Shown piece by piece: positions 10,913-46,308 of a DNA stretch of 47,464 nt. Location of the stretch: the IMG/VR virus record IMGVR_UViG_3300006990_003274, positions 1 through 47,464 of that record; one strand, given 5' to 3'. The first letter of the stretch is position 1. Every line of letters starts with the position of its first letter. Both the position numbers and the translations under genes were made by a program. Source of the DNA: a virus. Below the pieces are notes generated by a model that searched no databases, was not told where the DNA came from, and worked only from the letters and a program-made list of their open reading frames with translations.

Positions 10913-10986
10913 AACACTCTCCCTTTTACAGTTAAGTGCGTTCCTTCGCTTAGTGCTACTTCCGGGCTTATTGCCTGAACGTAATA

Positions 10987-17103: not shown

Positions 17104-17382
17104 ATGGATTTTTTAACAATAGCAAAAGATTTAGGATTCCCAATCGCAGGGGCACTTGGTGCTGGCGGCTTTGTATTTTTAACACTTAAATTTATCCTAG
17201 CAGGTGTTACTGACTCTGTGACTACACTCAAAGGAATTATTGGATCTCTTGACAATCGTGTTCAAACTATGAACAACGACTTAGTTAAGATTGATGCACT
17301 ACTGAGTCACGCATTACATATTAAACCAAACGTAGACAGAATTGCCGCTAACGAAGGCAAGGATGACGCAAGACGAGATTAA
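17104..17382 (+). CDS. Holin-like small membrane protein A
   Basis: 92 residues: MDFLTIAKDLGFPIAGALGAGG then one TM helix (FVFLTLKFILAGV) and a coiled-coil-like tail (LDNRVQTMNNDLVKIDALL). The start resembles protein B at 17603 (KDLGFPVVAALGLG), so the two look like paralogues. A short N-terminus, one TM and a coiled coil suit a holin or pinholin accessory. GAGGG lies 11 bases before the ATG. Confidence 0.55.
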   Translation: MDFLTIAKDLGFPIAGALGAGGFVFLTLKFILAGVTDSVTTLKGIIGSLDNRVQTMNNDLVKIDALLSHALHIKPNVDRIAANEGKDDARRD

Positions 17383-17602: not shown

Positions 17603-17932
17603 ATGGAGTCAGAACTAACAAACGTAATTAAAGACTTAGGATTTCCAGTAGTTGCCGCTCTAGGTCTTGGTTACTTCATTTACTTTATTTGGAAATGGGT
17701 TACAGAAGTTATTGATCCTGTTATAGGTCAAACTATGGGTACACTAATTAAATTAGTTGACCGTGTGCGTATGTTAGATAATGATATTATTCGCTTAAAC
17801 ACAAAGTTAAGCATGGTATTAGAAAACGAAGCCAAACTAGATAAAAAACGTAGAGCTGAACTAGAAGAAATAGTTTCAAAATATACAGACATAACAAACG
17901 ACCCATTTAATACAACGGGTACAAAAGATTGA
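17603..17932 (+). CDS. Holin-like small membrane protein B
   Basis: 109 residues. N-terminal SELTNVIKDLGFPVVAALG parallels protein A. One TM (LGYFIYFIWKWV) is followed by a long amphipathic or coiled-coil tail (LVDRVRMLDNDIIRLNTKLSMVLENEAKL). The stop TGA overlaps a TTG start for the next ORF. Function inferred only from architecture. Confidence 0.55.
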   Translation: MESELTNVIKDLGFPVVAALGLGYFIYFIWKWVTEVIDPVIGQTMGTLIKLVDRVRMLDNDIIRLNTKLSMVLENEAKLDKKRRAELEEIVSKYTDITNDPFNTTGTKD

Positions 17933-18093: not shown

Positions 18094-18145
18094 TACTAAC
18101 GAGCGTAATGCTTATTGGAAAGCGTACTTACTTACTTCGAAGTAG
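18008..18145 (+). CDS. Small hypothetical protein overlapping the Cys-rich ORF
   Basis: 45 residues, MMYAQTANVKIPMEHYIAKL then a Lys/Glu-rich end. AAGGAG lies 7 bases before the ATG, a strong SD inside the Cys-rich ORF in a different frame. It overlaps the 3' end of the oppositely transcribed cyclase by 14 bases. Unknown. Confidence 0.5.
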   Translation: MMYAQTANVKIPMEHYIAKLKEHEAKRLSTNERNAYWKAYLLTSK

Positions 18146-20180
18146 CAATAAACACACCGGACCAGTCTTTAGGAAGGTCTTGTGTTTTCTGGAATTCACA
18201 ACGTTCAATCCACATGTCATAGTATGCACTCATTTTGCCATCAAAGTGGCTGTGTAGTGTATTACATAATTCTATTGCTTTGTCAAAGTCTTGTGCTAGA
18301 TATGCTTTGTGCATTTCTTCATGCTTACGTTGTGCTGTACGCCAAGCAGGGCGTCTATTATCTAACACTGTCCATATTGTAATACCTACAGTTTTACCTT
18401 TAACTGCTAAATCGTCGATTTTTAAATAGAAAAAGTCGGTTTTAGTACGTTGGTATGTCGCATCTCCAACAAGTAATACACATCCGTATTCTTTACACTT
18501 GCTTTCAATACGAGCGGCTGTACTGACTGAGTCTCCAAGGACGTCATAACTGTGTCGGGCTGTTGAACCCATCTCGCCAAGATAGCCAAGACCAGTATTA
18601 ATACCAGCCCCCATACCCACTGGGGGTCTTCCTTCTTTGGTAATCTTATCATTAAATATCTCCACTGCTTTTAACATATCCAATCCGCATTGTACTGCTG
18701 TCTTTGGATGTTGCGGATCTTCAATTGGTGCATTGTGTACGTGCATACTTGCATCGCCAATGTACTTAATAACCATACCGTCTGCGTCAAGTATAGGTTG
18801 TGTGATGGCATCCATGTAACCATTCATAATTTTTGTTAGACCTTTTACATCATCACCAAATGATTCACCTAATGGTGTAAAGCCTCTTAGGTCTGAGAAA
18901 CAAATTGAAACTTCTTTCTTCATACCATCTTTTATAAGTGCAGGATTCTCTTGTAGCATACGTACTACTGTTGGTGATGCATATCCTGCAAACTGTTTTT
19001 TGATTGCTTGTTTCTGTGCATACTCACTTACAAATCTATTAAAGATTGCATGTAAGCCTACTACAAATACAGTTACCATAGGCATTGTACCATCTAACAA
19101 GTACAAATAATTAACCCATGCATAATGTACACTATAGGTGAGTCCTCCCACAAACGCAACTAATATTCCTCCAGCCAACCAGTAAGGGGCAAACCTTCCA
19201 ACGCACACCAGTGCTATGCCTAGTAGTCCGGTTGTGATAAGCTCTGCTAAGAATGCCCAATAGGGACGCTCAATTTGATCGCCATCTATCACAGTTTGAA
19301 GTGTTACTGCGGCCGGTATATAGTTGTGTTGTGGTCCAGTCGGACTAGCGATTAAACCACCTATGCCTTCTGCGGTTACTCCTATAATAACAGTCTTCCC
19401 TTCAAACGATCTATAATCATCTGAGGCCGCACTAATAGTTTCAAATTGTTTATTCCATCTCAACCATATCTGTGCATTAGGATCTGTTTTTATAATTGGG
19501 TAACCAGGAACTCGTACTGCTTCTATTCCACCACCAGCTTCTTTAACTTGGTAACTAGGGTTTCCTGTTGCTACACGAATAACTTCAATTGCTAAAGCGG
19601 GATACGTGTCTTCGCCGACACGCATTAGGAGTGGTACTCGTCTTACAACACCGTCGATTTCTGGGTTAGTGTTCAACACGCCCACACCGTCAGCATTATC
19701 TCCTAGCAATTGGATTGGTCCTAACATTCCTGGCCATTCAAACATATATGGCACAGGATCACCAATTTTCGCAATGCCTCGAGGGACCGCATTACGATTG
19801 GCTTGGGTACTTCCTACTTGTGCTATTACAACACCGTTACCCGCAAGTGCTTCAGCTAATTGAATATCACCACCTAGTCTATCTGTCTCAGACATGATAA
19901 CAGGAATTACGATGATACCAGCACCTGCTTCGCGAAGTTTCCAGATTATATCTGCAATTATATCACGCTTCCAGGGCCATTGCCCGTACTTTTCAATGGC
20001 GGCTTCGTCAATGGTCACGATGCCGACGTCCTGGGATAATGTTGCCTTATCAGTTTGTTGAAGTAAGTCGAATTGCTTAAGGCGAGCAGTCTGCACTAAT
20101 TGACCATCTGTGTAATGCAGACCTATCATAATGAACGCTGTGACAAACGCCACAGTCCAATGTGTAATATACTTCGTCAT
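18132..20180 (-). CDS. CHASE2-domain class III adenylate cyclase
   Basis: 682 residues. Order: N-terminal TM (about 6-22); extracytoplasmic CHASE2 sensor (about 25-300, with GIVTIDEAAIEKYGQWPW and GKTVIIGVTAEG); three TMs (307-327, 332-352, 358-378); class III cyclase domain (about 420-605); short helical tail. Catalytic residues: metal Asp430 (FSDLRGF) and Asp476 (KYIGDAS), adenine-selecting Lys472 and Asp546 (SYDVLGD), and Arg557 (AARIE). The usual transition-state Asn of the GDxVNxAAR motif is Ser553, so activity needs testing. It is last in the curli/FecR operon and would let infected cells make cAMP in response to a periplasmic signal. Confidence 0.9.
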   Translation of the reverse strand: MTKYITHWTVAFVTAFIMIGLHYTDGQLVQTARLKQFDLLQQTDKATLSQDVGIVTIDEAAIEKYGQWPWKRDIIADIIWKLREAGAGIIVIPVIMSETDRLGGDIQLAEALAGNGVVIAQVGSTQANRNAVPRGIAKIGDPVPYMFEWPGMLGPIQLLGDNADGVGVLNTNPEIDGVVRRVPLLMRVGEDTYPALAIEVIRVATGNPSYQVKEAGGGIEAVRVPGYPIIKTDPNAQIWLRWNKQFETISAASDDYRSFEGKTVIIGVTAEGIGGLIASPTGPQHNYIPAAVTLQTVIDGDQIERPYWAFLAELITTGLLGIALVCVGRFAPYWLAGGILVAFVGGLTYSVHYAWVNYLYLLDGTMPMVTVFVVGLHAIFNRFVSEYAQKQAIKKQFAGYASPTVVRMLQENPALIKDGMKKEVSICFSDLRGFTPLGESFGDDVKGLTKIMNGYMDAITQPILDADGMVIKYIGDASMHVHNAPIEDPQHPKTAVQCGLDMLKAVEIFNDKITKEGRPPVGMGAGINTGLGYLGEMGSTARHSYDVLGDSVSTAARIESKCKEYGCVLLVGDATYQRTKTDFFYLKIDDLAVKGKTVGITIWTVLDNRRPAWRTAQRKHEEMHKAYLAQDFDKAIELCNTLHSHFDGKMSAYYDMWIERCEFQKTQDLPKDWSGVFIATSK

Positions 20181-20184
20181 ACTG

Positions 20185-20192
20185 TATTTATG
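20185..20192 (-). promoter_or_regulatory. Late-type element before the cyclase
   Basis: CATAAATA, then CAGT and ATG. If used as a T4-type late promoter the message would be nearly leaderless. No SD is visible before the cyclase start. Confidence 0.35.
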
Positions 20193-20405
20193 TTACTTTG
20201 TGAGGTGTGAAGATTTTATTATTTCACGCTGTTCTAGTTGTTGTTTGAACATTGCTCGAACTTCAGGTGCGTTGTCTGTTGCTTCTAAGAACTGTAATAT
20301 ACCGCTCCAACTGTTGCCCATAAACAGTATCCAACCGTCCTTGTATAATACGCTACGGCTGTTTAAATTTTTGAAGTAGAAGTTTTTATAGTGATATTCG
20401 TTCAT
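20193..20405 (-). CDS. Small hypothetical protein between curlin hybrid and cyclase
   Basis: 70 residues from ATG 20405. Aromatic-rich start (NEYHYKNFYFKN), then a short beta region (VLYKDGWILFMGNSW) and a charged helix. No signal peptide or SD. CTAAATA lies just upstream, partly formed by the preceding stop codon. Unknown; position suggests a cytosolic partner of the operon. Confidence 0.5.
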   Translation of the reverse strand: MNEYHYKNFYFKNLNSRSVLYKDGWILFMGNSWSGILQFLEATDNAPEVRAMFKQQLEQREIIKSSHLTK

Positions 20406-20414
20406 CACTAATAT

Positions 20415-21845
20415 TTAGTTTTGGGTAATAGTAGTTGTGCCACAACCATTTGCGTTTACACAATTTTGATTTATTGAATATACTTGTCCTGTTGAACTAT
20501 CTTGTGTAAGATCAAGTCCTGAGTCATAACCTGACATTGAGATACTAGCATTGTGATTGCCACTTCCGTCTTGTGTTATGTCAACTGTTTGATCGTTACC
20601 TACTGCTATTTCTGTATAGTGAGATCCTGATCCCCATTGGTTAACATCTATATCGTTGTCATCACCTTGTACAGAAATAAATGCTTTTTTATCACTGTCA
20701 TTTAACTGGCTGGTATTAACATTATTAATATCTCCATCTATATCTACTGCAATATAGTGTCCGTTGTTACCTACAGTATTATTATGATTTTGTGTAATAC
20801 TTAATATATTAGAGTCACCGTCAATATCAAACTCAACTCTATTATCATCTGCACCTGTTGTAACTCCTTGGTCAACTGTTGTTGTATTAGAGTTGCCAGT
20901 AATCCCAAACAATATAACATTGTTTTCACCTTTTTGTTTGAGTGTAGTGTTGTTATTATCTCCAACTATCTCTGCTTTTGCTAAACTGCCGTTACCTGCA
21001 ATAAGATTGTCATCGCCGTCTTGTACGATAGTAAGTGTATTGCTGTCTCCTATTTGTTCAATGTATACACCGTTGCCACTGTGTGTTACACCTCTGGCTG
21101 TTGAGATCTGATTAGTTTGTGCATTGCTTATACTTGAAGTATATGTTGTCGTTGTTGCAACTAATCCTGCTTCTGTCATTGCACGAGTTAGGAAGTCTAC
21201 CATGTTATTACTATATTGATGTGTTGATAGTAATTGTCCATAACCAAATGAAACTGTAATTGATCCACCATTACTACCATACTCCCAATTATACCAAGTG
21301 TTCCAACTACTGCCTGTACTATTTTTTGCCATTGCTGTACCGCCACTTGCTGTAAACAGTTTGTCTGGTCCTGGCAATGTGTTTTCACTTGATGTGCTTG
21401 AAGCATAATCGCCTACCGCATATGAACCCCAACAGGTATTACAACTACCTGCTATATACATACTTCCTACACTTAATTTACTTTCAACCAACGATTCAAT
21501 GCTACCTATTCTATTGGTTGCTCCGTTGGGTGCAAGAATGACTACGTGTCCTCCGTTGCCTATAAAACTTTCATAGTTTGTTTTACACGTACTGCCACAG
21601 TTTGAAGTTCCTGCTATATCAATTACAAGTTCTTTGCCTGATAGATCATTTGAACTTACTGTGCCACTTGTACTTCCTGTCACAGTAAAACCTAAATCTT
21701 CAAGTTCACTTTTTAAATGATTGTAGTGTGAACTTGTGTTTGTTCCACCTGTGCTGTAATATATTAAGGCATCATTTGCCCAACTAGTTGTTGGACTGAA
21801 TAATAGTAATACTATTAGTGCCTTCGCTACCCAATCTATAGTCAT
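20415..21845 (-). CDS. Secreted hybrid: amidotransferase-like domain plus curlin repeats
   Basis: 476 residues from ATG 21845. A signal peptide (to TTSWA) precedes an N-terminal domain (about 25-225) of alternating strands and helices (DALIYYSTGG, GKELVIDIAGTSNCG, GGHVVILAPNG) that resembles a ThuA/GATase-like fold with a Cys-containing surface. The rest is curlin-type repeats rich in Asn, Gln, Gly and Asp (YIEQIGDSNTLTIVQDGDDN, TLKQKGENN, LSITQNHNN). It probably exits through the CsgG pore and joins a fibre. The gene overlaps the FecR gene by 62 bases; AAGGAG is 12 bases before the ATG. Confidence 0.75.
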   Translation of the reverse strand: MTIDWVAKALIVLLLFSPTTSWANDALIYYSTGGTNTSSHYNHLKSELEDLGFTVTGSTSGTVSSNDLSGKELVIDIAGTSNCGSTCKTNYESFIGNGGHVVILAPNGATNRIGSIESLVESKLSVGSMYIAGSCNTCWGSYAVGDYASSTSSENTLPGPDKLFTASGGTAMAKNSTGSSWNTWYNWEYGSNGGSITVSFGYGQLLSTHQYSNNMVDFLTRAMTEAGLVATTTTYTSSISNAQTNQISTARGVTHSGNGVYIEQIGDSNTLTIVQDGDDNLIAGNGSLAKAEIVGDNNNTTLKQKGENNVILFGITGNSNTTTVDQGVTTGADDNRVEFDIDGDSNILSITQNHNNTVGNNGHYIAVDIDGDINNVNTSQLNDSDKKAFISVQGDDNDIDVNQWGSGSHYTEIAVGNDQTVDITQDGSGNHNASISMSGYDSGLDLTQDSSTGQVYSINQNCVNANGCGTTTITQN

Positions 21846-22938
21846 ATAGGAAGAAATCTCCTTGTTCAATATCTAGTGTGTAATCGTGTCTAGTATTTAA
21901 TCTTAATCTAATAAAACCGCCTTGTTCAAAGTCTTCACGTTGCCATACCCAGTGCGGTTCTATTTTGTCTAATCTAATTTGTGTTTTAGGATCAAACCCT
22001 ACCTTAGGAACATTTGATAATAGTCTTGCGTTTTGTCTTTTTAATTCATCTTGGAACAATGCCGCTAGTGCTTCATTAAGTTTGTCTAGCATGTCATGTA
22101 GCATGTCAGCTAACATGTAATCAGTTTCGTCTAGTGCTGTTTTCCAAATACCTTCAATGCTATCTTTGAGTGCATCGCCTTCTAAGCCGTCAAACTCTAA
22201 AAAGTCAACACCTAAGAAGTCTGCTAGTTTTCTACGTCTTTGCATTTCTGCTTCTGAGTATTCATCAATAGGTGTACGCTTACGCAATAGTAATAGGTTG
22301 TTGATTTGGTCTTCGCTTAGATCTAACAGTACTGGCGGTGTTGGCTTACGCATACCATGTACTGTTGCTGTTGCCTGGAACGCTTGATTCATAATAACCA
22401 TACCAGCATCTGTTTCTACAGTAATTTCTCCTACGTAGCACATGCCTGCTGTATCACAACTAGGCAATAGTGTAATCATTGACCCGCCCACTTCATCTAC
22501 GACCATTACGAAGTCTGTACCACGAACACCAATAGTAGCACTAGGTGTTCTTATCTTTACATTCTGTTTGTATTTTTTTGCAATTTGGCCACTTGCATAA
22601 CGCACTGTGCCTAAACTTGCTTTGAGGGAAAGTGACCCTACATCGTTTGCTGGGTCGTATACAAACTCGTCAATTACTAGTCTTGATTGTTCTGTAAGTT
22701 CAACTCTTGTTTCGTCAACAAAGTCAATACGCATAGTACCGTTTGCTGTAACAGCAGAGTCCATGCTTTGAACACCAACACCTGCGTCTCCTTCAATAAC
22801 AACATCGCCGTCTCTTTCAAGTACACCTGATCCTTTGATCTGTCCGATCTCTCCTACATTACCATATGCAGGTCTAGCTATAATAGCTATTACTATCAAA
22901 CCTAGGAGCAGAAACCATGTATACTTGTTCGGCGCCAT
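21784..22938 (-). CDS. FecR-domain periplasmic/surface protein
   Basis: 384 residues from ATG 22938 (AAGGA 6 bases upstream). Signal peptide or N-terminal anchor, then a FecR domain (about 25-150) with GDVVIEGDAGVGVQS, GTMRIDFVDETRVELTEQSRLVIDEF and KIRTPSATIGVRGTDF, the core FecR motifs. A helical domain follows (about 215-320) and a beta-rich C-terminus. Bacterial FecR-domain proteins are often encoded beside CHASE2 cyclases, as here, suggesting a sensing partnership. It lies between two curlin genes. Confidence 0.85.
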   Translation of the reverse strand: MAPNKYTWFLLLGLIVIAIIARPAYGNVGEIGQIKGSGVLERDGDVVIEGDAGVGVQSMDSAVTANGTMRIDFVDETRVELTEQSRLVIDEFVYDPANDVGSLSLKASLGTVRYASGQIAKKYKQNVKIRTPSATIGVRGTDFVMVVDEVGGSMITLLPSCDTAGMCYVGEITVETDAGMVIMNQAFQATATVHGMRKPTPPVLLDLSEDQINNLLLLRKRTPIDEYSEAEMQRRRKLADFLGVDFLEFDGLEGDALKDSIEGIWKTALDETDYMLADMLHDMLDKLNEALAALFQDELKRQNARLLSNVPKVGFDPKTQIRLDKIEPHWVWQREDFEQGGFIRLRLNTRHDYTLDIEQGDFFLYDYRLGSEGTNSITIIQSNN

Positions 22939-22947
22939 TGTCATTCC

Positions 22948-23697
22948 TTAGTCGCTTTGTGTTATATCAACGTCTTGATCATCACCAGCAAAATCAGCGT
23001 CAACCATATTATCGTTGACTCCACTTTGTGTAACTGTATAACTACTTGCACCGCCTGTAGCATCAATTTTAACTGTGTGTCCTGCACTGTCGCCGTCACC
23101 ACTTATGTTAATATCAACTACATTACCTGCACCACTTGATGTTAAATTGTTTCCACTAGCCGCACCGCCACTTGCTGTGCTTGAACTATTGTTTACAGTA
23201 ACCGCAACCAATGCACTTTTGCCGTCAACGTTTGAGTTAATAACGTTTCCGTCTCCAGTGATTGTGAATCCAATTGTAGATCCATCTGCATCAGCTGTAT
23301 CGCCAATGTCAAATGTAAATGCGTTTGAATCACCTGTTGCTGTAATATTTAAAGTTATGTTTTCACAATTGGTTCCACTTGTACTATCACAACTTAAATC
23401 CACTGTGTTACTATCTCCTGTAAACACCCATGTACCAGTATAAGTGTCACCTTGGATATCTGCTACGATTGTGTTTAAGCTACCTGTTTGTGTTATAGCA
23501 AATGTCATCGAGTCACCATCTAAGTTTACGTCTGTTGTTGATGTACCGATTACGTTATTTGCTCCGTCTTGCACAATATCTAAATCTAATGTATCACCCA
23601 CTTGCTCAATGTATATGTCGTTAGCCAAAGCAGGAGCCACACTAAAGATTAGTAGTACTAATGCTGTTAAGCTATTTGAAATGTACTTTCTTGTCAT
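22948..23697 (-). CDS. Curlin-repeat fibre subunit (CsgA/CsgB-like)
   Basis: 249 residues. Signal peptide to PALA (about residue 25), then NDIYIEQVGDTLDLDIVQDGANNVI, a classic curlin repeat, and several further Ile/Val-x-Gln/Thr-x-Gly-x-x-Asn units (FAITQTGSLNTIV, IGFTITGDGNVI, YTVTQSGVNDNMV). Low charge, rich in Gly, Ser, Asp, Asn. Expected to polymerise as an amyloid-like surface fibre after export by CsgG. GAGGG sits 7 bases before the ATG; it overlaps csgG by 26 bases. Confidence 0.85.
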   Translation of the reverse strand: MTRKYISNSLTALVLLIFSVAPALANDIYIEQVGDTLDLDIVQDGANNVIGTSTTDVNLDGDSMTFAITQTGSLNTIVADIQGDTYTGTWVFTGDSNTVDLSCDSTSGTNCENITLNITATGDSNAFTFDIGDTADADGSTIGFTITGDGNVINSNVDGKSALVAVTVNNSSSTASGGAASGNNLTSSGAGNVVDINISGDGDSAGHTVKIDATGGASSYTVTQSGVNDNMVDADFAGDDQDVDITQSD

Positions 23698-24664
23698 TGT
23701 TGTCCCTCGTTGTATTTGTTATTATTTTTTCTTCAGCTTCTATAGGCCAACATAAATCTTTCTCGCTACAGTACAATCTAGCTTTAGGCCATTTTTCCAA
23801 TGCATCTTTTAATGGTAATGGTCTCAGCTTAGGCACCTCGCCTTTGTATTTTGTACTGACCTCTTTAAACTTCCAAAGTCCTTCCTTTTCACCTTCATAT
23901 ACCAGTTGCACTACACCTGCTTCAATTGCCGCCCTTACAGCATAATTTACTGGCTCGTTAACAGAGTAACCTGTCTCCGACTCTATCAATTTAGTTCCCA
24001 TATCTAAGAACTTAAATACGTCTGCTCCAGACCTTGAACTTGCAATAGTTTTTTCTGTTGCAATACTCAATAACACCTTTCCAGTGCTAACTGATACAAT
24101 TCTCATCACTACTGTGACTGTATCAACTCTATACTCAGTTTGTGCGCCTACTCCAAGATATCTTGCACCAGCACCTCCAATAGCTACATTGCTATCGTAA
24201 CCAATAATGCCGCCTTCAAGTATCAGTCCTGCAAATACCATTGGCTTTAATGCTCTTGGACCGTTCGGTAAGTTTTTCTCGTATACTTCTCTAGTGTTAC
24301 GGATCAACTGTCTTTCTTTAATCAAGTTATCCATACCTATACGTTCAACAACTTCGAACCATGTTTTGTTGCCTATATCTTGCAGAGCTTTTATAACCCA
24401 AACCTCTGAACCTTGCGTTACTGCACTAGATAGATTAGCAATATTATCTGCAGGTTTACGTTGTCCAGTTTTATCTGAAAAACTATAAACTGCAATAGTA
24501 ATTTTCTGCCCGTCTAACTCAGGAACTGCAATCATCCTGTCTGCTAATGGAGCCGGCTGTATCCTTGGTGGACCAGCATTTTCCTTTATAGCCAGTGACT
24601 GTTGCATTGTTCCACTGCATCCAGTTAGTAACAATAAGCCTATGATAGTTAAGATCTTGTTCAA
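23672..24664 (-). CDS. csgG: CsgG-like curli secretion lipoprotein, TTG start
   Basis: 330 residues. A lipoprotein signal with lipobox LTGC (Cys16) is followed by a CsgG domain: KITIAVYSFSDKTGQRK, SSAVTQGSEVWVIKALQD, WFEVVERIGMDNLIKERQLI, LILEGGIIGYDSNV, GARYLGVGAQTEYRVDTVTVVMRIVSV. It forms the outer-membrane nonameric pore for curlins. The start must be TTG 24664 (overlapping the csgF TGA as TTGA), since the next Met would remove the signal peptide. It is longer than E. coli CsgG (277) by a C-terminal extension. Confidence 0.92.
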   Translation of the reverse strand: MNKILTIIGLLLLTGCSGTMQQSLAIKENAGPPRIQPAPLADRMIAVPELDGQKITIAVYSFSDKTGQRKPADNIANLSSAVTQGSEVWVIKALQDIGNKTWFEVVERIGMDNLIKERQLIRNTREVYEKNLPNGPRALKPMVFAGLILEGGIIGYDSNVAIGGAGARYLGVGAQTEYRVDTVTVVMRIVSVSTGKVLLSIATEKTIASSRSGADVFKFLDMGTKLIESETGYSVNEPVNYAVRAAIEAGVVQLVYEGEKEGLWKFKEVSTKYKGEVPKLRPLPLKDALEKWPKARLYCSEKDLCWPIEAEEKIITNTTRDNNDKKVHFK

Positions 24665-25131
24665 AAGTTAAAATTCCCTGAGCCTGGTATTTCAATAGTA
24701 GTAGTGCTTCCATCTTCTTCAACAATGGTTAGCGTAATTGCTCCTGTTGTTGTGTCTTTAGCCCACGATATTTGCGAACCTTCGATTTCTGCTGATCCAC
24801 TGTTTGCACAACTATTACCACAATCAGCGAACATACTATCTACCATTTGCTTACTTAACGTTGCGTAAATTCTTGACTCAACGTTCTTAATAAACTTATT
24901 CAGGGTAGTATTTTCTAACTCTCGTTCTAATCTTTTAGCCTCTGCGTTTGCCTCATCTTGTAAATCTTTCTTTCTATTAAATTGTAGTTGCTCAACACTT
25001 AAAACATGTGACGAGTAACCATTTCCATAATGGAAAGCTGGAGATTTAAAACCCCAAGTAAGTTCGGCGGCCACTGGCTTGCTGATTAATAACATAATTG
25101 TAACGCCTATGTATATAATACTTTTGTACAT
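24661..25131 (-). CDS. csgF: CsgF-like curli assembly factor
   Basis: 156 residues. Signal peptide to about residue 22 (PVAA), then ELTWGFKSPAFHYGNGYSSHVLSVEQLQFNRKKD, which matches the CsgF N-terminus that plugs into the CsgG pore (FxxPxF pattern). A coiled-coil middle follows, then a short beta-rich tail with a CGNSC pair. In E. coli CsgF couples CsgG to the nucleator CsgB. First gene of the operon; TAGGAG lies 9 bases before the ATG. Confidence 0.88.
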   Translation of the reverse strand: MYKSIIYIGVTIMLLISKPVAAELTWGFKSPAFHYGNGYSSHVLSVEQLQFNRKKDLQDEANAEAKRLERELENTTLNKFIKNVESRIYATLSKQMVDSMFADCGNSCANSGSAEIEGSQISWAKDTTTGAITLTIVEEDGSTTTIEIPGSGNFNF

Positions 25132-25274
25132 TTGTCAGACTCCTATATATGATATTTATCAGATCGTAATAGTGTTGCCTCCCTCACGCTTTACACATCT
25201 ATTTATATATAGGTGTAAATAATTTTACACCAATATAACATACTTACGTATAGATAAGCATACTAAATACTTTT
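25132..25274. promoter_or_regulatory. Divergent control region of the curli operon
   Basis: 143 bases between csgF (minus) and an HTH gene (plus). It holds a perfect inverted repeat GGTGTAAA-TAAT-TTTACACC (25212-25231), a minus-strand TATAAATA late promoter right beside it (25200-25207), a second GATAAATA at 25153-25160, a copy of a 24-25 base repeat (25170-25194) also found at 25519-25542, and a plus-strand CTAAATA ending 5 bases before the HTH gene's ATG. It looks like a switch controlling both directions. Confidence 0.6.
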
Positions 25275-25505
25275 ATGACAACATATAAAGAAGAACAAGA
25301 TGGATTATGGGCCGCATTAGACGAAGCATTTCCTATCAACACTAAATTACAAACAAATCTTAATGATGAAGTTACTAAACTTGAAATGAGTCGTATAAGT
25401 GAAGCACTAAGAGAACATGATGGTAATCAAACTAAAGCCGCAAAGTCTTTGGATTTAGGTAGAGTTACATTTATTGCTAAGGCAAAAAAGTACGAATTAG
25501 TTTAA
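25275..25505 (+). CDS. Fis/NtrC-type HTH regulator
   Basis: 76 residues. The C-terminal 40 (ISEALREHDGNQTKAAKSLDLGRVTFIAKAKKYEL) have the pattern of the Fis/NtrC C-terminal HTH_8 DNA-binding domain (GNQTKAAKSLDLGR as turn and recognition helix). The first 35 residues are short and acidic, with no AAA+ or receiver domain. It is divergent from the curli operon, faces a palindromic operator-like sequence and so likely regulates that operon. No SD; a CTAAATA element ends 5 bases before ATG. Confidence 0.75.
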   Translation: MTTYKEEQDGLWAALDEAFPINTKLQTNLNDEVTKLEMSRISEALREHDGNQTKAAKSLDLGRVTFIAKAKKYELV

Positions 25506-25551: not shown

Positions 25552-26238
25552 TTATTTAATCTTAGGAAAGAGCATGTCTGTGCAGAATTTATCAACGTCT
25601 GCTTCATTAAGCCCTAGGCTTTTCATTACTCTTGGGGTATGTGGATTTTGTTGCTGATTATGGCAATAGTAGTTTTGACTTGCAATAGTTAAGTCTCTAT
25701 CACCTTCGCCTGTATAATGGCCAACGGAATCAAAGTACGTTTCAAGGTTGTCAAGCGCCAGTTGAATAATAACAGTTGCTTCTTCTTCCTTTACATTGCT
25801 TGCCGCAATCATACTTGGAGTAAAGATGTTTGTTGCCCACTCGGGTAACTCACGCTTCTTTTCTGGCACAAAGTCTTGTACTGCACTCTGATACCATTGA
25901 ACCATAGGGTGATCTTCTCCGCCTGAACTAGCAGAAAAATCATGGAAAGCACCAGTCATTTTAGTCTTTCCTGCAATAACGTCAAATCCGTAAATTGGAC
26001 CGTTATTGTTAAGTTGTGGAAATACACAAACATGCATCATCCACAAACCTTTAGTATCTCTTGCGTCGACTACATCAATATGAGCTCTGCGAACATGTTC
26101 GTTCTCCCATACTCTGTTAATCCAACTCCCGTCAGCCTGATTAAAATGGTCCATTCCTGGTTCATTTATTTCAGTGCCGCGGGCATTGAACATTTGAATG
26201 ATATCTTCTTGACAGTCGACGAGTTGATCCCAGATCAC
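25552..26238 (-). CDS. pcyX: Ferredoxin-dependent bilin reductase, PcyX-like
   Basis: 228 residues from GTG 26238 (GGAGAG 4 bases upstream). The core PQLNNNGPIYGFDVIAGKTKMTGAFHDFSAS carries the proposed catalytic Asp of the HDFSA segment. FTPSMIAASNVKEEEA and QNYYCHNQQQNPHTPRVMKSLG match this reductase family (PcyA, PebS, PcyX). Context (immediately after heme oxygenase, phage genome with alphaproteobacterial traits) fits PcyX, known from uncultured pelagiphages, which reduces biliverdin to phycoerythrobilin. Electrons would come from a ferredoxin not seen here. PebS is the alternative. Confidence 0.85.
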   Translation of the reverse strand: MIWDQLVDCQEDIIQMFNARGTEINEPGMDHFNQADGSWINRVWENEHVRRAHIDVVDARDTKGLWMMHVCVFPQLNNNGPIYGFDVIAGKTKMTGAFHDFSASSGGEDHPMVQWYQSAVQDFVPEKKRELPEWATNIFTPSMIAASNVKEEEATVIIQLALDNLETYFDSVGHYTGEGDRDLTIASQNYYCHNQQQNPHTPRVMKSLGLNEADVDKFCTDMLFPKIK

Positions 26239-26257
26239 TTTACTCTCCTACTTAACT

Positions 26258-26851
26258 TTAGTAAGTGAAATTGTTTAGTTCTTCAAAAATTGCTGTTGAA
26301 AGTTCAAAAGCCTTATTAGCTTCGTCAGCCATGCTATCTTTAGTACGCTTACGAATTAATGCTTTCATTTCATCTACAGAATGATTCATATCTGCGAATG
26401 CATACATTCTACCTGATCCAGGTACTTTGTTTGCAATCATTTGTCCGCCACTCAAATCGCCCATGTGTCTTACATAAACGTGTGCAAACAATTTGTCTTT
26501 ATCGTGTTGACAATTTTTTACAATGTGACTTCTGTATGCTTCTGCTGAAGGTGCTATCTGTGGTGGATTTGAACCATCTTCGGCTCCACCTAATTCTACG
26601 TAGTCTGCCCAAATATCATCTGCTTGGATTAAACCATCTAATGGTAGATCGTCATCCGGCATTGATAAATCTTCTGGTCCAAAACAACCCATGCTTAGTG
26701 CAACATCTTCTAGGATGTCATATACTAACCACATGTTGTATAGGTATGTTTTATATTTTACTTCGCTCATTTTGCCAGACATCATTTCTCTTGCGAATTC
26801 CTGACGTTCTGCGTTCTGATGAGCGGCTTGTGTTAGTGATGCTAAACTCAT
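26258..26851 (-). CDS. Heme oxygenase
   Basis: 197 residues, HO-1/HugZ-independent classic fold. Proximal His in LTQAAHQNAE (His11) and the distal helix HVYVRHMGDLSGGQMIA with the Gly-rich heme-contact motif GDLSGGQ. It opens heme to biliverdin, CO and iron. The product feeds the PcyX-like reductase next door (20 bases between the genes). A TATAAATA late promoter lies 44 bases upstream, so the pair is probably expressed late. Confidence 0.93.
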   Translation of the reverse strand: MSLASLTQAAHQNAERQEFAREMMSGKMSEVKYKTYLYNMWLVYDILEDVALSMGCFGPEDLSMPDDDLPLDGLIQADDIWADYVELGGAEDGSNPPQIAPSAEAYRSHIVKNCQHDKDKLFAHVYVRHMGDLSGGQMIANKVPGSGRMYAFADMNHSVDEMKALIRKRTKDSMADEANKAFELSTAIFEELNNFTY

Positions 26852-26902: not shown

Positions 26903-27214
26903 CTATTCTTTTTCAATTGCCACCTGTAAAGGATAGCCATGTTCTCTAGAAATCTTAGTACATTCCACTGCTTTTTGTTCAGCAATCTCATATGTGTATA
27001 GTCCAACTACTGCTGAACCTTTCTCATGTATTGCCATAGTTAGTTCTTGTGCAGTTTGTGCTGAATGCCTAAAAATATCTACTAATAAATCTACAACAAA
27101 ATCCATAGGAGTTTCGTTGTCGTTAGCAAAGATTACTTTGTATTTGCCCGGCTCTTGGACAACTTCTTTAATCTTTTCTTTTACATTAATTTCTGTTTCT
27201 AGTTCTACGCTCAT
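26903..27214 (-). CDS. clpS: ClpS protease adaptor
   Basis: 103 residues. Core YKVIFANDNETPMDFVVDLL is the ClpS signature (NDD/E-TPM-FV), then the pocket helix (VDIFRHSAQTAQELTMAIHEKGSAVVGLYTYEIAEQKA) and CTKISREHGYPLQVAIE. ClpS delivers N-degron proteins to ClpA(P). The acidic N-terminal arm needed to trigger ClpA is present. A phage ClpP gene is at 13 kb; ClpA is absent here, so host ClpA is assumed. Confidence 0.93.
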   Translation of the reverse strand: MSVELETEINVKEKIKEVVQEPGKYKVIFANDNETPMDFVVDLLVDIFRHSAQTAQELTMAIHEKGSAVVGLYTYEIAEQKAVECTKISREHGYPLQVAIEKE

Positions 27215-27262: not shown

Positions 27263-27721
27263 TTACTTACTTTCACCGTCAATTGTAAGACCATCATTGA
27301 TCTTAATTGTTTTAGGCTTTAATGCCTCTGGCAATTCACGTTCTAAGTGAATGTTAAGCATGCCTAGCTCAAGGCTTGCATTTTTAACATTTACATGATC
27401 TGCAAGTGTAAACTCCCTGCGGAAACTACGTCCGCCAATACCTTTGTGTAGGTAATTGACTTGTTCATCTCCTTTAGGGGCAGTTCCTTCAATCTTTAGT
27501 GTATCACCGTCCTTAGTAATATTAAGATTGTCCATACCAAAGCCAGCAACTGCGACTGAGATCATATACTCGTCATCGTTGATTTGTGCTATGTTGTATG
27601 GTGGATACCCATTTCCGTTTGGACTATTTGCGAACTGCGTGTTCATTTGTTCAAATAATCTATCAAAGCCTACTGTGGCTCTGTGGAAGTGTGGTAGGTC
27701 TAGAGTTGTTAGTCTTGTCAT
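27263..27721 (-). CDS. Hsp20 small heat-shock protein
   Basis: 152 residues. N-terminal HFHRATVGFDRLFEQM, then an alpha-crystallin domain (about 40-130: NIAQINDDEYMISVAVAGF, LKIEGTAPKG, RSFRREFTLADHVNVKNASLELGMLNIHLERELPE) and the short tail KPKTIKIN with an IxI-type motif. It prevents aggregation, often during phage assembly. The leader carries three hairpins, the last pairing the SD like a ROSE thermometer. Confidence 0.93.
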   Translation of the reverse strand: MTRLTTLDLPHFHRATVGFDRLFEQMNTQFANSPNGNGYPPYNIAQINDDEYMISVAVAGFGMDNLNITKDGDTLKIEGTAPKGDEQVNYLHKGIGGRSFRREFTLADHVNVKNASLELGMLNIHLERELPEALKPKTIKINDGLTIDGESK

Positions 27722-37514: not shown

Positions 37515-37850
37515 TGTGGGGAAAGAGTTAAAGTACGACTTTTCTGTTGCTAGGTAAGTCGCCAACCCCGAGCGATTATGCCGCTAGGGCGAAATCCTCA
37601 TTGACAGCGAAGTCATTAAGTGCACCGAAGTTCACGAAAGTAAATTCGCCGTTGTTTATATTTGCTTTTGCAATTATAAGTTTCGTTCGCGTTAACCGAG
37701 CTTACATCCGGGCAACTCCACTCTTCTACTAATCCGCCTGTCGATCCCATGTCATCCCCATCATAAGCACACTCAGTAAATGTGTTTATGGTGGAGATGC
37801 CGGGAATTGAACCCGGGTCCAGCTCGTCGTTTGAATTGCTTCAACGTTAC
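37515..37850 (-). ncRNA. ssrA: Circularly permuted two-piece tmRNA
   Basis: Order on the minus strand: acceptor piece (about 37850-37789) with T-loop GGGTTCAATTCCC and encoded CCA; a 29-base intervening piece (37788-37760); then the coding piece starting GGGGATGACATGGGATCGACAG. GGGGATG pairs with CATCTCC of the acceptor piece. This permutation, cut out during maturation, is the alphaproteobacterial layout. The tag reads ALNDFAVNEDFALAA (37623-37579) then TAA, with a ClpXP-type ALAA end. Pseudoknot arms (GGGG/CCCC, GCGACTT/AAGTCGT) follow; the 3' limit is approximate. Confidence 0.9.
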
Positions 37851-37857
37851 ATTTATA

Positions 37858-37886
37858 TTTATACAGTCTTTTTAGAGAGATGTCAA
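37858..37886 (-). promoter_or_regulatory. Sigma70-type promoter for tmRNA
   Basis: TTGACA, 17 bases, TATAAA; the start site near 37851 coincides with the acceptor-piece 5' end. The -10 also forms part of TATAAATA, so early and late use are both possible. Confidence 0.75.
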
Positions 37887-38252
37887 GAGAAGAATGTAAG
37901 AAAGATAACAAGTATAATGCAATATTTGATCTATTGACTGTGTTACCCAATAACTATTGTCTGACGGTGTCCATTTATATCTTTTGACTATTTTTGTTTT
38001 ATAATGATCAATAGCAAAATGAAGTATATAATCTAGTAATGCAATTATAATAGCATTTACAAAGTTAAATGTAATTAATAATATAACAAGAAATGTTCCT
38101 ACACTATGATCACCGGCATGAATGTATCCTTTAGAACTTCTAAGGTCGCCTTTGTCTCCTGGTAGGTTACGGAAAGATTGCAATGCCAAATCAGCAATAG
38201 CATGTTTAACAAACAGTCCCCAAAGCAATAATAAACTTTCTATCATGCCCAT
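37872..38252 (-). CDS. DUF3307-family membrane protein
   Basis: 126 residues, mostly hydrophobic with three to four TMs. GLFVKHAIADLALQS, GYIHAGDHSVGTFLV, ALLDYILHFAIDHYKTKIVKRYKW and QSIDQILHYTCYLSYI contain the conserved His/Asp pattern (HxGDH, DxxxHxxxDxxK, DQxLH) of DUF3307. Function unknown. AAGGAG lies 8 bases before the ATG; its 3' end overlaps the tmRNA promoter. Confidence 0.75.
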   Translation of the reverse strand: MGMIESLLLLWGLFVKHAIADLALQSFRNLPGDKGDLRSSKGYIHAGDHSVGTFLVILLITFNFVNAIIIALLDYILHFAIDHYKTKIVKRYKWTPSDNSYWVTQSIDQILHYTCYLSYILLLTSL

Positions 38253-44877: not shown

Positions 44878-45553
44878 CATGTTTGTCGTAATACTGATAC
44901 ACTCTATCCCACCACATTTGTTCATACTTGTCAAACTCGTCTGGCCATACATCAAACTGTTGATACTGTAGGTCTCTTGAACACATAAAGATGTGTCCTT
45001 CACGTATGTTGGTGCCAAATACTTCGTTGTGAGCGAGAGCATAGGCTGTGAGCTGTAAGTAATAGTCTTCAACCCATTCAGGCTTTTTAGGCTTGTTTGT
45101 TTGTTTAAAATCCATTATACAAGGCTGTCCTTTATACTGTCCAACCAAGTCAGTTGTACCTGCATATAATTTAGGATGGAATAAGTTTATCTCTGATCCC
45201 CATATTTCGTCAACATCGACCATAGCGTTGTCACGGATCTGTTCAGCCATCTTGTGAGCTTGCTGTGCATAAGGGTTAGATCCAGGTGTAGGCCATTCGC
45301 CAAAGTCAACATAGTCTTCCAAATACTTGTGCATACGTGTACCAACACTGGCCGCTTCAGTAACAATTTCTTGTGCTTTTGCTTCACCTACACGTTTGCG
45401 CCATGCAATTAAATGGGTCTTATCTTTCGTTTTATCAAGGATAGTTGTAACACTTGCGACAGCGTTTCCGTCTGGACATGCGTATAAACGCTTGCCATTT
45501 ATCTGTTTACGTTTGATTTCTTTGTAGTCGTACTTCTCTATAATTAAACTCAT
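44873..45553 (-). CDS. PD-(D/E)XK nuclease
   Basis: 226 residues. Catalytic core AGTTDLVGQYKGQPCIMDFKQTNKPKK (Asp, then D-x-K) and the QxxxY helix DYYLQLTAYALAHNE are as in RecB/Cas4/lambda-exo-like nucleases. The N-terminal region (SVTTILDKTKDKTHLIAWRKR) is typical of PDDEXK_1. No iron-sulfur cysteines are seen, so not a full Cas4. Possible recombination or host-DNA degradation role. Overlaps hemC by one base. Confidence 0.85.
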   Translation of the reverse strand: MSLIIEKYDYKEIKRKQINGKRLYACPDGNAVASVTTILDKTKDKTHLIAWRKRVGEAKAQEIVTEAASVGTRMHKYLEDYVDFGEWPTPGSNPYAQQAHKMAEQIRDNAMVDVDEIWGSEINLFHPKLYAGTTDLVGQYKGQPCIMDFKQTNKPKKPEWVEDYYLQLTAYALAHNEVFGTNIREGHIFMCSRDLQYQQFDVWPDEFDKYEQMWWDRVYQYYDKHG

Positions 45554-46308
45554 TAGTTCTCCGTGTAGTATACTGCTTCCAGCTTTATTGGATTGCTACC
45601 TGTTGCATGACCTGCAACTTTTGTAGAACAATCTCCGCCTATTCCTTTTAGTAATGCTCTTTCTAATTGTGCCTGTTCGTATGTTAGTTTATGATTTGCT
45701 TTGCTTACAATAGCATTTGTTGCTTCATCATCCTTGCGTGTCTGTAGTGCAATAATTCCTTGTCCAACTGCTGGCACTATGCTAGTCAAACGTTCGTAAT
45801 CTCTTTTGATACCTAGTGCATCTAATCCTGCTTCTGCAAGTACAATAGCATCATATTCACCTGCATCTAACTTTGCAAGTCTTGTATCAATGTTACCACG
45901 TATAGGTTTAACTTGCACATTAATTCCAGCATACAGTTGTTCTAGTTGTGCTTTGCGTCTTGGACTACTAGTACCTATTACAAAGCCGTCAAATACTTTA
46001 CCTATCAATACATCATGTGGCCTATTACGTTTTAACACTGCACATATATGTAAGTCAGGATGTTCTATATCTCCTGGCATATCTTTTAAACTGTGTACAC
46101 CAACATCAATAAGCCCGTGCTTCAATCCGTATTCAATAGCATTACAGAATACACCTTTACCACCTATCTCATGTATAGGAGTATCAGGATTGAGATCACC
46201 ATCTGTTTGTATTACTTCAATAGTTCCTTGGCCCATTGCTTTTATAGCCTTGTCAGCATATGCTAATGCTAACTTACTACCACGCACACCTACTCTAATC
46301 AATGTCAA
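45553..46308 (-). CDS. hemC: Hydroxymethylbilane synthase
   Basis: 251 residues against about 310 in bacteria. IRVGVRGSKLALAYA, GGKGVFCNAIEYGL, VGVHSLKDMPGD (catalytic Asp region), IGTSSPRRKAQL, IRGNIDTRL, EAGLDALG and the dipyrromethane-cofactor Cys in GIGGDCSTKVAGHA are all present. Domain 3 is shortened after the cofactor loop. Converts porphobilinogen to hydroxymethylbilane, upstream of heme, which the phage heme oxygenase then opens. Confidence 0.93.
   Translation of the reverse strand: MTLIRVGVRGSKLALAYADKAIKAMGQGTIEVIQTDGDLNPDTPIHEIGGKGVFCNAIEYGLKHGLIDVGVHSLKDMPGDIEHPDLHICAVLKRNRPHDVLIGKVFDGFVIGTSSPRRKAQLEQLYAGINVQVKPIRGNIDTRLAKLDAGEYDAIVLAEAGLDALGIKRDYERLTSIVPAVGQGIIALQTRKDDEATNAIVSKANHKLTYEQAQLERALLKGIGGDCSTKVAGHATGSNPIKLEAVYYTEN

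Follow-up and report, generated by a model that had tools for sequence, protein, structure and literature searches.

Curli gene clusters in phages were described by Zaragoza-Solas et al. 2020 (PMC7029224), and later studies proposed a role in lysis (Buchholz et al. 2022, PMC9004378) and reported that the whole module of pelagiphages, including FecR and adenylate cyclase, is expressed in metatranscriptomes (Wittmers et al. 2022, PMC9599517); all three papers are cited here from parts of their text. The gene order CsgF-CsgG-curlin-FecR-curlin-cyclase is found in Pelagibacter phage HTVC008M (NC_020484), whose record annotates the FecR protein and the second curlin as hypothetical, and in Methylophilales phage Melnitz (MZ577095). 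Here, we analyze an operon of the same order encoding a type VIII secretion system (T8SS) on the minus strand of IMG/VR virus record IMGVR_UViG_3300006990_003274, whose whole stretch of 47,464 bases we call the window. Its cyclase shares 65% identity with that of Melnitz and 46% with that of HTVC008M. The window differs from both phages by a GATase/ThuA-like domain on its second curlin and by a divergent Fis-type gene, whereas HTVC008M carries a PA14 domain and an N-type cyclase domain (see below) and Melnitz has no extra curlin domain. We favor, with little more than even confidence, the explanation that this operon is a phage type VIII module that descends from a bacterial operon, puts amyloid-like fibers on the infected cell, and brings along its own envelope sensor. 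Surface fibers coupled to envelope sensing would be the most natural reading of its gene content. The points made below on ancestry, the FecR protein, the cyclase, the fiber tip, and regulation do not appear in the available portions of PMC9599517, PMC9004378, and PMC7029224.

The operon runs from position 25131 to 18132 and comprises seven genes:

24661..25131, minus strand: csgF, CsgG-associated extracellular chaperone, 156 amino acids (aa) with signal peptide (Pfam PF10614, 4.4e-13; PHROG 35372, 1e-51)
23672..24664, minus strand: csgG, outer-membrane curli secretion channel, 330 aa (Pfam PF03783, 1.9e-48)
22948..23697, minus strand: curlin 1, 249 aa with signal peptide and degenerate curlin-like repeats
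21784..22944, minus strand: FecR-domain protein, 386 aa (Pfam PF04773, 3.9e-9)
20415..21845, minus strand: curlin 2 (hybrid), 476 aa with signal peptide, a GATase/ThuA/IFT52-like N-terminal domain of ~220 aa, and curlin repeats (Curlin_rpt, 1.3e-11)
20193..20408, minus strand: small gene of 71 aa
18132..20180, minus strand: CHASE2 class III cyclase, 682 aa (Pfam CHASE2, 1.3e-38; Guanylate_cyc, 1.7e-16)

These seven open reading frames (ORFs) lie exactly where an earlier note, made from the sequence letters alone, had placed them, and their Pfam matches comprise CsgF, CsgG, FecR, Curlin_rpt, CHASE2, and Guanylate_cyc. The note's description of most neighbors as overlapping is slightly strong, with overlaps at three of the six junctions (CsgF/CsgG 4 nt, CsgG/curlin 26 nt, and FecR/hybrid 62 nt when the hybrid starts at ATG 21845) and gaps of 3, 6, and 12 nt at the others. 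Its central proposal is right in that a phage operon unites curlin repeats and their export system with FecR and a CHASE2 cyclase. As a viral operon the combination was known before, being published for pelagiphages (PMC9599517, as far as the text drawn on goes) and present in HTVC008M and Melnitz.

Wherever a distinct viral CsgG locus extends at least 7.5 kb downstream (26 cases), CsgG is accompanied by a FecR protein, a second curlin, and a CHASE2 cyclase, and the gene order is the same in 25 of these loci; all 26 were drawn from the 80 top matches of the CsgG scan and lean towards relatives of the window. CsgG and the cyclase occur together within 69 distinct viral loci. An operon peculiar to the window's phage is ruled out by this conservation and by the cultured phages. 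The window shares with the known phage T8SS modules CsgF, CsgG, curlin, and FecR in conserved order, often followed by a second curlin and the cyclase, and it has the constituents expected of a T8SS, i.e., a CsgG channel with lipobox together with CsgF, and curlin-repeat subunits that are predicted to be secreted.

The operon DNA is that of a phage and is not chimeric. The window is a virus record with T4-type genes, including a ribonucleotide reductase large subunit with 72% identity to homologs of Pelagibacter phage Mosig and cyanophages, and it carries tRNAs. Its cyclase is 100% identical in two further viral contigs (L004 and L005), and L004 matches the window at 97–100% identity over 15.6–27.3 kb, which together rule out a chimeric window. 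The earlier note had named chimerism or a lack of operon conservation among related phages as grounds for abandoning its idea, and neither was found. SAR11, or another marine bacterium with similar streamlining, is the likely host. Four contigs that are probably phage curli contigs, judging from their viral-type operon, are binned into bacterial metagenome-assembled genomes (MAGs): L164, L165, L166, and L176 (Pirellulales, Rhodobacteraceae, Flavobacteriaceae, and Pelagibacter).

CsgG has a lipobox (LTGC) at residue 13, and its profile matches E. coli CsgG structures at 1.6e-64, while CsgF shares 52–55% identity with its counterparts in Melnitz and HTVC008M. Curlin 1 remained below the threshold for detection by Pfam and is 46–59% identical to the annotated curlins of the same two phages. 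The CsgG and CsgF of E. coli curli (3x2r, 6l7a) are homologous to those of the window, in which FecR and the CHASE2 cyclase are added and no CsgE, CsgD, or CsgC was seen among the neighbors scanned. Distant CsgG-like proteins with ~27% identity are also encoded by the 350-kb Brevundimonas phages ON529851–ON529860, and one of them is annotated as curli assembly.

Our search for the ancestry of the module screened bacterial genomes with the FecR profile and then looked for CsgF within the class and order of the first hit. It yielded three chromosomal operons of Caulobacterales (L167, L168, and L322), one of them on a 705-kb contig, with the composition CsgF-CsgG-curlin(s)-FecR-CHASE2 cyclase and with cellular flanks such as acyl-CoA dehydrogenase, methylmalonyl-CoA mutase, TonB receptors, glycosyltransferases, acetyl-CoA hydrolase, and others. 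FecR and CHASE2 were not present at the remaining CsgF loci examined. Like the window, these operons have the gene set on one strand. They differ from it by a Ser or Thr plus Asn in the cyclase, the lack of a second curlin after FecR, and their flanks. In the CsgG tree, the viral sequences form a single clade (support 97) that is sister (support 93) to the three Caulobacterales sequences and nested in bacterial CsgG. These operons contradict the published statement, as worded in the part of the literature cited here, that FecR and cyclase do not occur in bacterial curli operons, and together with the CsgG tree they rule out that the two genes are viral additions. In the favored explanation, the module derives from an alphaproteobacterial operon that already held FecR and cyclase, and phages afterwards exchanged the sensor and catalytic halves of the cyclase as well as fiber-tip domains.

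The start of the second curlin in the window is more likely ATG 21845 than TTG 21869 because the signal peptide read from that ATG is common to two other contigs, L007 and L164, in which the signal peptide of the hybrid is kept and the mature part is replaced. Across 73 distinct second curlins, the repeats begin within the 53 N-terminal residues in 55, i.e., without any extra domain, while the other 18 carry ~180–230 additional residues of either PA14 type (7) or the GATase/ThuA-like kind (11; ten by phmmer with the window's domain, including the window itself, and L142 by alignment alone). A fold search with the hybrid's N-terminal domain gave no significant E-value (best 0.02) and leaned towards an IFT52/ThuA/flavodoxin-like alpha/beta fold. 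L007 and L078 are 74–89% identical to the window in FecR and 89–97% in CHASE2, yet their second curlin does not align. The swapping of domains is evident from these comparisons, and the N-terminal domains of the second curlin, putative fiber tips, are exchangeable between phages. The adjacent 71-aa gene has a recognizable reading frame in L009 and no counterpart in Melnitz, HTVC008M, and L007; therefore, it looks like an insertion rather than a core part of the module.

The FecR-domain protein consists of a signal peptide, a FecR beta domain (residues 31–194), a helical part (211–310), and a curlin-like C-terminal segment (~316–386). Its AlphaFold model (mean pLDDT, i.e., predicted local distance difference test, of 80) shows the beta domain followed by helices and, at the C-terminus, a beta meander, and its Foldseek matches are limited to the FecR-type signaling domain of anti-sigma factors (4m0h, 6ovk); a profile sequence search of the PDB returned nothing convincing. 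The protein shares this periplasmic FecR-type beta domain (Pfam PF04773) with the FecR/PupR anti-sigma regulators, but a signal peptide takes the place of their cytoplasmic anti-sigma part before a transmembrane helix, the FecR domain is its sole Pfam match, and it ends in a curlin-like tail. The signal peptide and the single Pfam domain rule out an anti-sigma regulator. They also speak against a response to iron or an uptake function as suggested in PMC9599517 (cited in part), in which the pore would import cofactors or siderophores under iron regulation by FecR. The presence of a FecR domain gave rise to that idea, but no sigma factor or TonB-dependent transducer is found among the neighboring proteins scanned and the Foldseek coverage is confined to the signaling domain, so that we regard it as highly improbable.

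The C-terminus of the FecR protein resembles that of the curlins by profile comparison. With hhalign, the last 50 FecR columns matched the curlin C-terminus profile at 83% (E 8.8e-6), compared with 32% for the overlapping window of residues 326–375 and at most 2.2% for windows ending at or before residue 350. A terminal motif, N.[IVLA].[IVL].Q, is found in 76 of 86 FecR proteins and in 2 of 3613 other ORFs, and a similar terminal strand (GGTIINVTQD) closes the FecR proteins of both L167 and L168. We call the tail curlin-like because the profile–profile comparison was decisive, the single-sequence hidden Markov model (HMM) being too weak by itself. FecR genes beside CHASE2 cyclases are common in many chromosomes, also without curli, in agreement with the earlier note's remark that such pairs are known in bacteria.

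The cyclase has the architecture of a CHASE2 receptor cyclase, i.e., a hydrophobic N-terminal segment, CHASE2 (residues 15–321), hydrophobic segments at 309–327 and 361–379, a class III cyclase domain (421–601), and a C-terminal extension. It shares its fold and the metal, Arg, and Lys sites with class III adenylate cyclases such as CyaB (3r5g) and 2w01, its sites being D430, K472, D476, D546, S553, and R557. Of the canonical site (two metal Asp, base-site Lys and Asp/Thr/Ser, transition-state Asn and Arg) it has all but the catalytic Asn, which is replaced by Ser (S553); its base site has Asp, and 3r5g and 2w01 have Asn in the alignments. All 81 distinct viral cyclases that were read retain D430, K472, D476, and R557; at positions 546 and 553, Asp is paired with Ser in 62 of these (S-type), Ser or Thr with Asn in 18 (N-type), and Asp with Asn in one. 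Ser or Thr with Asn is also the pairing in the cyclases of the bacterial curli operons, in nine chromosomal CHASE2 cyclases, and in all 26 readable sequences among the 30 best alphaproteobacterial relatives. A bacterial source of the S-type domain was not found among the matches listed from 385 alphaproteobacterial genomes, which reach no more than 43% identity. Judged by sequence, the S-type domain is a derived phage type.

Its history differs from that of the sensor to which it is joined. S-type as one clade is compatible with the cyclase tree (approximately unbiased [AU] test, p 0.38) but rejected on the CHASE2 tree (p 8e-43), which forces at least seven changes. Synonymous divergence (dS) between the window and L007 is 0.28 in CHASE2 and 2.09 in the cyclase, with identity falling near 19200–19050, while the CHASE2 halves of the window and L090 are saturated and their cyclase dS is 0.67. 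These patterns show a catalytic half that is repeatedly exchanged between CHASE2 sensors. With the other S-type cyclase domains included in the comparison, the window gives a ratio of nonsynonymous to synonymous divergence (dN/dS) of ~0.04–0.17, and the S-type variant is therefore maintained by purifying selection; the open frame and the low dN/dS rule out a decaying pseudogene. One could imagine that the cyclase acts alone, by depleting ATP or by making a cyclic nucleotide that disturbs signaling of the host or of rival phages, and that it sits in the operon by descent. The strongly conserved, phage-specific D546/S553 pair, its spread independently of the CHASE2 sensor, and the lack of the usual receptor in hosts would suit such a role. 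However, CHASE2 sensor and FecR are retained with the cyclase in every sufficiently long CsgG locus, and the pairing of FecR and cyclase already existed in the bacterial operons, which makes a solitary role unlikely.

Two features adjoin csgF upstream:

25275..25505, plus strand: divergent Fis-family helix-turn-helix regulator, 76 aa (Pfam PF02954, 2.9e-10)
25200..25207, minus strand: T4-type late-promoter motif TATAAATA, ~75 nt upstream of csgF

Among 87 additional distinct viral csgF loci, 22 have a Fis-type gene divergent to csgF and four have one elsewhere in the locus. The late-promoter claim rests on comparison across phages because the count of TATAAATA in the window alone is at chance: The motif occurs in 26 of 95 distinct csgF upstream regions, against 0.011 expected per region, and in 8 of 438 internal genes. 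Late action would fit the proposal of the Melnitz paper that the CsgG/CsgF pore is a gated, pinholin-like channel that times lysis, with fibers secondary or absent. For this channel, PMC9004378 (cited in part) argues from modeled narrowing of the pore, from the absence of observed clumping, and from missing csgA/csgB. The Melnitz GenBank record, however, lists two products of this operon as curlin-repeat proteins, all 26 viral CsgG loci described above have a second curlin, and the lysis channel leaves FecR, its curlin-like tail, the exchangeable fiber-tip domains, and the cyclase unexplained. We therefore hold it to be quite unlikely.

Several other features of the window are recorded here in their own right. 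A heme oxygenase and a ferredoxin-dependent bilin reductase adjoin the operon (25552–26851, minus strand), the latter with its nearest relative in our phage collection in Pelagibacter phage Mosig (53%), and the window has another tetrapyrrole gene encoding porphobilinogen deaminase (45553–46308, minus strand; Pfam 6e-58). Genes for a ClpS adaptor and an Hsp20 chaperone lie at 26903–27214 and 27263–27721 (minus strand). Convergent to the operon, two small proteins of PHROG 18771 with hydrophobic N-terminal parts are encoded at 17104–17382 and 17603–17932 (plus strand). The window also has a glutamine riboswitch (10935–10983, minus strand) and a permuted alphaproteobacterial transfer-messenger RNA (tmRNA; 37532–37890, minus strand); a tmRNA with glutamine riboswitch is reported for Melnitz and Mosig in the part of PMC9004378 cited here.

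We picture the favored fiber module as follows. Probably at a late stage of infection, it would place amyloid-like fibers on the host cell, with CsgG and CsgF exporting both curlins across the outer membrane and, in some phages, the N-terminal domain of the second curlin (PA14, or GATase/ThuA-like as in the window) displayed on or near the fiber. The FecR protein would reach the periplasm via its signal peptide and, given this and its curlin-like tail, could touch the curlin or fiber on one side and the periplasmic CHASE2 domain on the other. In this way, the cyclase would signal the state of export or of the fiber to the cytoplasm, and candidate benefits to the phage are host clumping, receptor masking, and control of export. 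In its most specific form, FecR would report fiber or export state by its curlin-like tail through CHASE2 to a phage-specific cyclase with mobile catalytic half and a reader other than CRP, a version that we put forward as tentative and rather unlikely.

Several observations weigh against this picture. Loss of the catalytic Asn should weaken catalysis in class III cyclases, and with Ser in its place in 62 of 81 viral cyclases the activity may be low or altered. CRP-type cyclic-nucleotide-binding domains (PF00027) were found neither in ten phage records nor in one Pelagibacter MAG, nor in 110 of 117 sampled genomes of that MAG's SAR11 order; in the other seven, the domain is part of a long ORF of 372 aa (genome G852) or 870 aa (the remaining six). 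A class III cyclase was found in none of these 117 genomes. The absence of the cyclase from these genomes and the rarity of the receptor make a route through cyclic AMP (cAMP) and CRP doubtful there, and the earlier note's suggestion that the infected cell might make cAMP is uncertain in view of S553 and of a CRP-type domain that is rare in the SAR11 order and was not found in the ten phage records searched. CsgE and CsgD equivalents were not seen among the neighbors scanned, and no wider search was made. The similarity of the FecR tail is remote (E<0.01 in 4 of 86 proteins with the single-sequence HMM) and not clear in the FecR of L322, and contact between FecR and CHASE2 is suggested by gene neighborhood. 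For Melnitz, no clumping was seen by cytometry or transmission electron microscopy (PMC9004378, cited in part).

If the explanation is true, phages equip abundant marine bacteria with both a surface structure and second-messenger signaling, neither of which these hosts have. The cellular operon corrects the view of FecR and cyclase as foreign to bacterial curli operons and supplies relatives with which the link between FecR, CHASE2, and curlin can be tested. Recurrent swapping of the catalytic domain between sensors is a clear natural case of domain-level exchange in phages.

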